From a virus, in IMG/VR virus record IMGVR_UViG_3300020204_002343, positions 1 to 20,123 of that record: a DNA stretch of 20,123 nucleotides; one strand, written 5' to 3'. The number at the start of each line of letters is the position of its first letter. The stretch's first letter is position 1. Position numbers and translations under genes: made by a program. Of the stretch, positions 857 through 2,916 are shown one piece after another. Under the pieces are notes generated by a model. It saw nothing but the letters and a program-made list of their open reading frames with translations, searched no databases and had not been told where the DNA came from.

Positions 857-1232
857 TGAAAAGATTATAGAGGAATGCCGAGCTGTTGAGTCTCTGCTCC
901 TCGAAAAAAACACCGCCTATGGGGACGCAGCGACAAACCCATCAAACATATTCAGCACAAACTCCCCAAGAGCGTCTATATGCGCTAGGATTGATGACAA
1001 ACTTAACCGCATCAAGAATAGAGGTATCAACGACTCTACGGAGGACACAGTTACAGACCTTATCGGTTATTTAATTCTACTTAAAATTGTTTTAAAAGAT
1101 GAACAACATTCTAGACAAGAAGGTCACGATATTCAAGAGCCTGACGGACACTCAAACACCATACGTACAAACACTTGGACAAGTACTGGAACATATAAGG
1201 TCCCCGAAAACATCTTCTTTAGCGACTATTAA
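843..1232 (+). CDS. DUF1599/Nmad1-like phage protein with a 3' extension overlapping the helicase gene
   Basis: Residues 1-85 resemble the DUF1599 family (also called nucleotide modification associated domain 1). The family pattern is visible: LLLEKNTAYGDAATNP (18-33), NIF and a short serine/proline stretch, then ARIDDKLNRI (48-57), and DTVTDLIGYLILLKI near 68-82. Family members are common in phages near nucleotide genes; their biochemical role is not settled. The usual family length is about 85-90 residues, whereas this frame continues to 129. The extra 40 or so residues lie on the opening of the helicase gene in another frame and look like an out-of-frame translation. A T TTA AAA heptamer at 1091-1097 in the reading frame would allow a -1 shift ending at TGA 1100-1102 after 86 residues, overlapping the helicase ATG. 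Confidence 0.75.
   Translation: MKSTNEKIIEECRAVESLLLEKNTAYGDAATNPSNIFSTNSPRASICARIDDKLNRIKNRGINDSTEDTVTDLIGYLILLKIVLKDEQHSRQEGHDIQEPDGHSNTIRTNTWTSTGTYKVPENIFFSDY
1091..1097 (+). other. Candidate -1 frameshift slippery heptamer (T TTA AAA)
   Basis: The heptamer fits X XXY YYZ in the frame of the upstream ORF, with TTA at 1092 and AAA at 1095. A -1 slip there would read one AGA codon and then stop at TGA 1100-1102, overlapping the helicase start as ATGA. The shortened product (86 residues) would match the family's usual length. I see no strong upstream Shine-Dalgarno-like stimulator, so chance or an ancestral base loss remains possible. Confidence 0.35.
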
Positions 1233-2916
1233 CAGGATTCGTAGCGGTCAGGCTACGAAGGATGAGAAGAAACAACTCCCGATTATATGCTTTTCGGGAG
1301 TTTTTTTGTCTAGGGACGATTCGTCTCTGCAAGAACACTCAGGGTTGATGGTAATTGACTTTGACAAGATTGATGCAGAGGAGGCAAAAAGAAATCTGTC
1401 TCTAGACAAGCACACGCTTGTTTGCTTTATATCCCCATCAGGCAAAGGTGTTAAGGTTGTTGTGCGTATCACAAACCCTGAAAGGCATCGTGACCACTAC
1501 AGAAGCATTATGCGCTACTACGATGCCAACTATGGATTAGAAGTAGACTCAACAGGGATAAACGAATCTAGAGCCTGTTTCTTTAGCTACGATGAGGCAT
1601 TAGTCTATAGAGACGATGCGGAGGCTTATGGTAGCTTCTTAACGGAGAAGGCTGACAATCAGCAGATAGAGGTAAAGACAGCAGGGATTACGGACTACGA
1701 GCAGTTAAACATCGCTTGCCGTATGATTCGCAGAGCAGAAAACGGAAGCAAGCACGATGTTCTTCTACGTGCGTCAATACTCTGCGGTGGATACATAGCT
1801 GCCTCTATGATGGAGGAGGAGGAGGTTGTAAGGGTTCTTCTTAGGGAGATAGAGAAGAAGGACGTTGACTCTATGCACACCGCTATAAATACCATCAGGG
1901 ATGGTATTGAAAGAGGGAAGATGCTACCAATCAAGAATGTATTGGATGAGCGTGACAAGATGCGTAGAGAGCTGTTGATTAGCGATGGGGATATGTCTTT
2001 CATATCCTCCGACTCAGAGGACTACAAGTGGATTACGATGTTCGCTGAGGGGGAGATACCTCAAGGTCTTTCCGTTGGTATCGAGCAAGTTGACAGCCAT
2101 TGGAGGTTCAAGAAGAACTTCACCATCATCAACGGACATAGTAATATAGGCAAGACCACATTCGCATTGTATCTGCAAGTAGTAGCCTCTATGAGGCACG
2201 GATGGAGATGGCTGGTGTACACCTCAGAGAACAAGACAGCAGCCGTTAAAATGAAGCTGATGACTTTTGCGATGGGTAAAAGCGTTGAGTCTATGACCTT
2301 TAACGAAAGAAAGATAGCTTACGATTGGGTGAGGAAGCATTTCACGGTCATTGAAAACAACAAGACCTACTCCTTCTATGATATCCTGATATTCACGGAG
2401 AAGATGCTGAGGCAAGAACCTCTTGATGGGGTATTCATCGACCCATACAACAGCTTGAAAAGGGATATGAGGCAGGGTAGTACGCTTGGCGTACACGAAT
2501 ACGACTACGAGGCTATTAGCGAAATGCTCACGATGTCAAACGCCAACAAGATGGCTGTATGGCTTAACGCACACGCTGTCACTGAAGCTCAACGTATGAA
2601 GGGGGACGATGGGTTGCCTATCGCACCATTCGCAGAGCAGACAGAGGGAGGCGGTAAGTTCGTGAACAGGGCTGACGACTTCCTTACGTTCCACAGAAAG
2701 ATACAGCACCCTGAGATAGCGATGAGGCGAACTGTTGAGATGCACGTGCGTAAGATTCGTGAGACAGAGACTGGCGGTTCCCCTACGTCTTTCAATGAGC
2801 CTCTAAGATTCGAGTGCAATGCAGATAGAAACACCTTCTACTACATCAATGGTATCCTGATGTTTAACCCCCTGAATTGTGGAGAAGTAAGTAGAACTTT
2901 ATTTGGAGGAAGCTAA
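1099..2916 (+). CDS. Primase-helicase: VirE_N/BT4734-type N-terminus fused to DnaB-like RecA ATPase
   Basis: A 605-residue replication protein. Residues 1-180 match the VirE_N/BT4734-like domain that has a PrimPol-type fold: VTIFK at 9-13, LPIICFSGVF at 60-69, VIDFDK at 85-90 giving the acidic pair Asp87/Asp89, SPSGKG at 112-117, and VDSTGINESRACFFSYD near 149-165. A helical linker follows (about 195-290). The C-terminal half is a DnaB/Twinkle-like RecA ATPase: Walker A GHSNIGKTT at 346-354, Walker B DGVFIDPY at 443-450 with Asp448, and a WLNAHAV segment at 488-494 in the sensor position. It probably unwinds the fork and may also make primers. The start at 1099 is supported because conservation begins near residue 9; this puts 134 bases in overlap with the upstream ORF. 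Two strong hairpins lie inside codons 47-70. Confidence 0.92.
   Translation: MNNILDKKVTIFKSLTDTQTPYVQTLGQVLEHIRSPKTSSLATINRIRSGQATKDEKKQLPIICFSGVFLSRDDSSLQEHSGLMVIDFDKIDAEEAKRNLSLDKHTLVCFISPSGKGVKVVVRITNPERHRDHYRSIMRYYDANYGLEVDSTGINESRACFFSYDEALVYRDDAEAYGSFLTEKADNQQIEVKTAGITDYEQLNIACRMIRRAENGSKHDVLLRASILCGGYIAASMMEEEEVVRVLLREIEKKDVDSMHTAINTIRDGIERGKMLPIKNVLDERDKMRRELLISDGDMSFISSDSEDYKWITMFAEGEIPQGLSVGIEQVDSHWRFKKNFTIINGHSNIGKTTFALYLQVVASMRHGWRWLVYTSENKTAAVKMKLMTFAMGKSVESMTFNERKIAYDWVRKHFTVIENNKTYSFYDILIFTEKMLRQEPLDGVFIDPYNSLKRDMRQGSTLGVHEYDYEAISEMLTMSNANKMAVWLNAHAVTEAQRMKGDDGLPIAPFAEQTEGGGKFVNRADDFLTFHRKIQHPEIAMRRTVEMHVRKIRETETGGSPTSFNEPLRFECNADRNTFYYINGILMFNPLNCGEVSRTLFGGS
1238..1259 (+). 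promoter_or_regulatory. Perfect 8-bp hairpin inside the helicase gene
   Basis: TTCGTAGC at 1238-1245 pairs perfectly with GCTACGAA at 1252-1259 across a 6-base loop. It starts 5 bases after the TAA (1230-1232) that ends the overlapping upstream ORF, and lies 14 bases before a second hairpin with a T-tract. In the helicase frame it encodes part of a stretch conserved in VirE_N proteins. The pairing is read directly from the sequence; a role as pause or attenuator is inference. Confidence 0.5.
1274..1307 (+). terminator. Terminator-like hairpin with T-tract within helicase coding sequence
   Basis: AACTCCCGA at 1274-1282 pairs perfectly over 9 bases with TCGGGAGTT at 1294-1302 around an 11-base loop, and is followed by more T residues (seven in a row from 1301 to 1307). 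This is the form of an intrinsic terminator on the + strand, but it sits at about codons 59-70 of the helicase, encoding the LPIICFSGVF motif. Ribosomes on the helicase frame should keep it open, so it may act only when the helicase is poorly translated. It could also be a chance result of the conserved protein sequence. Confidence 0.45.

Follow-up and report, generated by a model that had tools for sequence, protein, structure and literature searches.

Can one stretch of DNA encode a conserved protein motif and at the same time carry a signal that ends transcription? The question is raised by the 5' part of a primase-helicase gene in a virus record of 20,123 bases, which was analysed as a whole and is here called the window. 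The features concerned are:

843-1232, + strand: overlapping upstream open reading frame (ORF), encoding a 129-aa protein (phrog_1485) without known function
1099-2916, + strand: primase-helicase gene (605 aa; PF08800, BT4734-like N-terminal domain; phrog_18375), which contains both hairpins
1238-1259, + strand: hairpin 1, TTCGTAGC-GGTCAG-GCTACGAA, with 8 perfect pairs and a loop of 6, covering helicase codons 47-54
1274-1282/1294-1302, + strand: hairpin 2, AACTCCCGA-(11 nt)-TCGGGAGTT, with 9 perfect pairs and a loop of 11
1301-1307, + strand: T-run of seven, its first two T within the hairpin 2 stem and five beyond it

We assign a probability of roughly 0.6 to the reading that hairpin 2 and its T-run would constitute an intrinsic (Rho-independent) terminator of the phrog_1485 gene, embedded in the helicase gene and gated by translation; like the other readings discussed below, it is judged from sequence.

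The two hairpins and their surroundings

The primase-helicase ORF begins inside the upstream ORF, and the two overlap by 134 bases in different frames. That the upstream ORF stops five bases before hairpin 1, as the initial annotation stated, is seen directly (TAA at 1230-1232). Between the end of this stop codon and hairpin 2 lie 41 nt, and the helicase ATG is 175 nt ahead of the hairpin. An Rfam 15 covariance-model scan of the window gave 0 matches at the gathering score, and a nucleotide search of 900-2916 against a phage collection gave no match. Judged from relatives, the hosts of this phage group are probably Bacteroidota.

The 8-bp perfect hairpin at 1238-1259 was confirmed in the sequence. 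Hairpin 2 coincides with the protein motif L-P-x4-S-G-x-F and forms the stem of the terminator-like element; its folding energy was -12.2 to -13.1 kcal/mol, depending on the stretch folded. With its nine perfect pairs it has the stable G+C-rich stem-loop of an intrinsic terminator, and a T-run directly follows the stem on the same strand. The initial annotation had placed seven T after this hairpin; the nine pairs stand, whereas two of the T belong to the stem and five follow it. A pattern scan with a loop limit of 8 did not list hairpin 2, the loop being longer.

Codon shuffles were used to compare the hairpins with chance. In the over-folding test, 1522 coding windows (step 12) from 12 ORFs of the 20 kb were compared with 60 codon shuffles per gene, and the 78-nt stretch with both hairpins was the lowest (rank 1/1522, z -5.55), so that the comparison with codon-shuffled genes proposed in the initial annotation came out in favour of the hairpins. 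With a home-made terminator score (stem energy plus weighted T count), hairpin 2 and its T-run scored 22.5 against a codon-shuffled mean of 6.9, and 0/200 shuffles scored as high, in agreement with the earlier suggestion that the hairpin was fitted in by synonymous codon choice. For hairpin 1 alone, 0/200 codon shuffles were equally stable, both in the window and in its relative L004. Both hairpins are real, beyond chance. A further perfect 9-bp stem with a loop of 3 is present in the helicase gene at 1888-1908, and 8/9 of its pairs are kept in L004.

Conservation among the closest relatives

The stop of the upstream ORF has an equivalent position in L002-L004 and in L016-L023. L002 and L003 (99% protein identity) show two base differences from the window in 1190-1330, both outside the stems. 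L004 is more diverged, with 349/1818 bases differing from the window (81% nucleotide and 87% protein identity), and of its three longest stretches of identity to the window, the ORF overlap excluded, two coincide with the hairpins (27 bases at 1275-1301, 26 at 1948-1973 and 26 at 1237-1262). Counting degenerate codons for which the amino acid is conserved, and with the ORF overlap excluded from the gene-wide set, 19/21 codons in 1237-1302 are unchanged in L004 compared with 259/465 gene-wide (hypergeometric P 0.0005; P 0.0004 when stratified by degeneracy). With a gene-wide search in place of a pre-named site the permutation P was 0.014-0.157, depending on segment length. Moreover, L004 keeps 17/17 pairs of the two hairpins, including a double change from A-T to G-C at pair 1274/1302; a neutral codon simulation kept 17/17 pairs in 51/100,000 trials (0.0005). 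The T after the hairpin 2 stem is shortened to TTTT before a C. Among the other perfect stems of at least 7 pairs in the helicase gene, L004 keeps 8/9, 7/7 and 3/7 pairs, and since two of these three are also well kept, the evidence from L004 is not conclusive by itself.

The peptide is nearly the same in the next clade, L016-L023 (80-81% protein identity), where both stems and the T-run are missing. The initial annotation had offered conservation of the stems in close relatives as a check; it is borne out in L004, with one compensatory change, and fails in L016-L023, where the loss of the stems despite the kept peptide argues against conservation by that annotation's own criterion. On these alignments we count the loss against conservation, and wider sampling altered the picture (see below). 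Between the window and L016, 3/21 conserved-residue codons in 1237-1302 are common compared with 213/459 gene-wide; this region has diverged unusually fast between the two clades, with the peptide kept in both.

Within the sequences sampled, hairpin 1 is peculiar to the window and its nearest kin. It is present only in the window, L002, L003 and L004, and a search for its exact core matched just three viral contigs, which belong to these relatives. All 8 degenerate codons of 1237-1260 are identical in L004; the stem is missing from L016-L023, and L016 has a different hairpin at this site (P 0.015). Among the 74 lineages described below, P<=0.05 was obtained at the hairpin 1 site in 5, which is near chance expectation, and we therefore reject the idea that hairpin 1 generally belongs to the element; no lineage besides the window and L004 reached 0/200 shuffles.

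Recurrence at the conserved motif

Relatives were collected in two scans. The first used an alignment of distant members as query and the best 80 of 480 relatives, and together with loci from other searches the first set comprised 92 genes including that of the window, giving 50 lineages less than 95% identical to each other. The second used another lead sequence and the best 80 of 491 relatives, and yielded 65 locus ids not seen before, part of them on contigs sampled earlier, with 24 new lineages among them. Two loci in the sample are bacterial copies. Excluded from the counts were fragments without the N-terminus (L024, L025), more distant members (L008-L012, L039-L042, L044), duplicates of the same contigs, and lineages with at least 95% protein identity to one already taken.

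Scanning of whole genes in the first 50 lineages gave 21 sites with a score of at least 20, a threshold chosen after the first scores had been viewed. Nineteen of these are at residue 68/69 (window numbering), which is the site of hairpin 2, and codon shuffles of the same lineages predicted 2.8 sites anywhere. The independent test consists of the 24 later lineages only, as the first 50 prompted the idea; these were drawn mostly from element-poor groups and gave five sites of at least 20, three at residue 69 (three positive lineages), one at 120 and one at 62, with expected numbers (10 shuffles each) of 0 at residue 69 and 2.3 anywhere. Together, 22/74 lineages, which are related to each other and include the window and L004, carry a strong hairpin with a T-tract at the motif, where 0.12 were expected (37/22,200 codon shuffles); the terminator-like hairpin 2 of the initial annotation hence has counterparts at the same site. 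For the stem alone, with the T-run ignored, P 0.05 against codon shuffles was reached in 21/22 positives and 6/52 negatives. A universal role is made less likely by the 52/74 lineages, some of them with weaker versions, that score below 20, and these include the nearest clade, L016-L023, with its almost identical peptide. Selection on a terminator-like structure inside the coding sequence is, on these comparisons, well supported.

The codons for Leu-Pro ... Ser-Gly-Val-Phe (CTN CCN ... NGG GTT TTT) might be complementary and T-rich without selection. Pro and Gly codons are always able to pair in part, shuffles can score high (the highest shuffled terminator score was 31.3), the structure can be lost while the peptide stays, as L016-L023 show, and the window-L004 pair taken alone leaves the gene-wide permutation range given above. 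We nevertheless find coincidence improbable, as shuffles that keep the peptide reach the score at the rate stated above compared with 22/74 real lineages, and as the stems use different registers between groups.

Six named phages have distant homologues of the gene (Panino, elemoE_10-3D, phi46:1, P12024S, phi18:2 and MW202828). Over the gene's first 900 nt, none of them has a site of at least 20 at the motif, which was not placeable in four of the six; phi18:2 is the only one with such a site, at codon 130, and MW202828 has a weaker site (16.0) at its motif. In L228, outside the 22, a hairpin at 2621-2650 (GACAGGGAGGC...CTCCCTGTT then GTTTTGTT; it ends 150 nt into the match) lies about 7 codons 5' of the usual site, at residue 62, and resembles a shifted counterpart.

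The element is built differently in the different groups. The window clade pairs CTCCCGA with TCGGGAG, and L026, L133 and L134 pair TCCCAG or TCCCCG with CTGGG(G/A) or CGGGGA, followed by six T. The largest positive group, with 17 lineages, pairs CTCCC(C/T)G or CTCCCCA with CGGGGAG or TGGGGAG, in a register two bases off that of the window; its T-run is mostly four T before a C (three in L137, five in L177), and its strongest fold pairs the T-run with upstream A/G. Three lineages of this group have ATT...AGT where the other 14 have GTT...AGC, a G-C to A-T double change with the pair kept; the three are close kin, so this is probably one event. A single codon is used for the commonest residue in 9/400 codon columns of the 17-lineage group and 6 of these 9 are motif columns (60, 62, 65, 67, 68 and 69), a conservation of stem codons that is partly built in since positives were defined by score. 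On a quick protein tree of the 50 lineages the trait needs 7 changes and is found on both sides of the midpoint root, so that the element has repeatedly been lost or gained.

In the first set, TTT encodes the Phe that follows the motif in 19/19 positives and 17/31 negatives, positives being chosen partly for T content. Grouped by stem, TTT is found in 24/28 strong-stem lineages compared with 24/46 others (Fisher P 0.005), and the former figure is biased upward because T was required in selecting 22 of the 28; two of the remaining six have TTT. These data bear on whether selection maintains the hairpin as RNA structure for another purpose, e.g. as a site of mRNA stability or processing, a ribosome pause or a protein binding site. 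Selection on the stem does not in itself demonstrate termination; the four-T tract carried by most members of the largest group is weak, strong stems persist in L190 and L043 with no T-run after them, and hairpin 1, which lacks any T-run, is fully kept in L004. We consider such a role unlikely but deserving of attention, given that TTT accompanies strong stems (with the bias stated) and that six or seven T end the stem in the window, L133, L026 and L134.

Alternatively, the signal could act at the DNA level, with a single-strand hairpin as replication or primosome site. The gene that holds the hairpin encodes a primase-helicase, and origins within replication genes are known from other phages. 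Two observations make this reading highly improbable. Stem strength and a T-run on the coding strand tend to co-occur, subject to the same selection bias toward T, and in the 17 positives the tract of the opposite strand, i.e. the Lys codons (AAA/AAG) before the stem, varies, as does the second loop codon, while Phe69 is TTT in all.

A putative translation-gated terminator

The best reading of the element is a putative embedded terminator that is leaky or translation-gated. Its relation to the two ORFs recurs: the stop of the upstream ORF is 28-43 nt ahead of the Leu codon of the motif in 21/22 positives (28-37 nt in 19/22), with L253 as the exception (137 nt), and the helicase start is 144-183 nt ahead of the motif in 22/22. 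The overlap to which the initial annotation drew attention is therefore widespread among positives and has the layout that a translation-sensitive terminator needs, since the terminator lies inside an ORF that could block it when translated. The stop-to-motif distance is, however, 37 nt in 27/51 negatives measured, and since many negatives share these distances the geometry belongs to the gene pair rather than the hairpin; alone it is no argument for a terminator.

The same distances are relevant to a recoding role, in which the hairpins would promote a +1 frameshift at the stop of the upstream ORF, or its read-through, and so yield a fusion protein. Hairpin 1 is only 5 nt past this stop and the ORFs differ in frame; however, hairpin 1 is limited to the nearest kin of the window, the motif lies well beyond the stop in the 19/22 positives just mentioned, and a fusion at the stop would lose approximately the first 44 helicase residues. 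We judged this reading unlikely in the extreme and rejected it.

For the terminator reading, measurements on lambda tR2 in E. coli offer a comparison (PMC4824070): termination is repressed just after a stop codon and maximal at >27 nt, the terminator is active within the initial 100 bp of an ORF, and deeper in the ORF the outcome depends on the dynamics of ribosome and polymerase. By this analogy the 28-43 nt spacing would be long enough for an intrinsic terminator to function in E. coli; the hosts, probably Bacteroidota, may couple transcription and translation in another way. At the pyr leader an advancing ribosome inhibits the terminator and ribosome stalling restores termination, according to the part of PMC5021804 available. 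If the same inhibition applies, ribosomes translating the upstream ORF would not obstruct the hairpin, and those on the helicase ORF might.

Specifically, a ribosome finishing the upstream ORF would halt 41 nt before hairpin 2, leaving the hairpin free to form, and part of the transcripts would then end at the T-run. A ribosome coming from the helicase ATG, 175 nt 5', could cover hairpin 2, and RNA polymerase would continue into the helicase, nuclease and nrd genes. From the comparisons above we regard termination at the element as likely and its gating by translation of the helicase as plausible.

The initial annotation suggested a translation-controlled attenuator. Its terminator-like hairpin 2 and the overlap geometry stand, and no antiterminator of an RNA switch was found: in 0/22 positives was an upstream antiterminator complement better than codon shuffles at P 0.05, which makes an RNA-switch attenuator unlikely. 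An 8-bp complement in the window, 1203-1210/1291-1298, was rejected as antiterminator (P 0.135 against shuffles; not the best pairing in L004). Nor did we find a short leader peptide with regulatory codons, the upstream ORF encoding the 129-aa phrog_1485 protein.

Intrinsic terminators and terminators inside ORFs are already known. As in the former, the element has a G+C-rich stem followed by a T-run on the coding strand shortly past a stop codon; it differs in being wholly within a translated downstream gene, in its mostly four-T run in the largest positive group, and in being known from sequence alone. The lambda tR2 reporters of Li et al. 2015 (PMC4824070), as far as described in the available text, likewise have a stop codon >27 nt upstream, and one construct has a second ORF through the terminator. 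These are engineered E. coli reporters with the second start 30 bp before the terminator, whereas the present arrangement is natural, has its start 144-183 nt before, and is found repeatedly in uncultured phages. Attenuators under ribosome control, such as the pyr leader (PMC5021804 and PMC4824070, available parts) are similar in that a following ribosome would block the hairpin and let transcription continue; here, the ORFs are those of a 129-aa protein and a 605-aa helicase instead of a short leader peptide, and no competing antiterminator was found. The attenuator survey PMC2965389, in the part available, also describes terminators near the 5' end of the controlled gene that are recurrent across lineages, but these are 5' UTR terminators, 1,004 of which overlap ORFs with an annotation as short hypothetical proteins, and the present element is inside a long conserved replication gene. 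A limited search of the open-access literature gave no conserved intrinsic terminator inside a phage primase-helicase gene, and the available text on phage LUZ100 (PMC10134795) holds nothing comparable. Within that search, we regard as new a terminator-like element that recurs, inside the codons of a conserved protein motif, where two genes overlap.

If the terminator reading is true, the locus is a natural case in which selection acts on one DNA stretch for two things at once, a conserved protein motif and a signal that stops transcription, the latter of which could limit the amount of message for later genes. Compact phage genomes with overlapping genes would then punctuate transcription without intergenic space, and terminator predictors that skip coding regions would miss such an element. 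Lineages with, without, with differently built or with shifted elements would provide a comparative system, probably in Bacteroidota, for the interplay of ribosome and RNA polymerase at an internal terminator. More tentatively, and at less than even odds, this phage group may control its replication genes with a translation-gated valve, consisting of overlapping genes and a terminator concealed among conserved codons of the second; the valve would be old, selected over deep divergence in varied registers, sometimes shifted, and present at more than one junction.

Other hairpins were seen in the relatives. In L133 (1090-1119), L026 (1096-1131) and L134 (1090-1125), three lineages at 60-61% protein identity, a second terminator-like hairpin is located approximately 35-40 nt into the next ORF and just past the stop of the previous one, i.e. 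the same layout at another junction. L144 (5265-5302), L165 (5267-5304) and L253 (5266-5303) have a strong hairpin followed by a T-run of about 7, inside a 167-169-aa ORF 3' of the helicase. Finally, in the ORF preceding the one that overlaps the helicase, L182 has a 40-nt hairpin at 2028-2067 (GCTCGTGT...ACACGAGC) without a clear T-run, and similar hairpins are present in L145, L174, L183 and L253.
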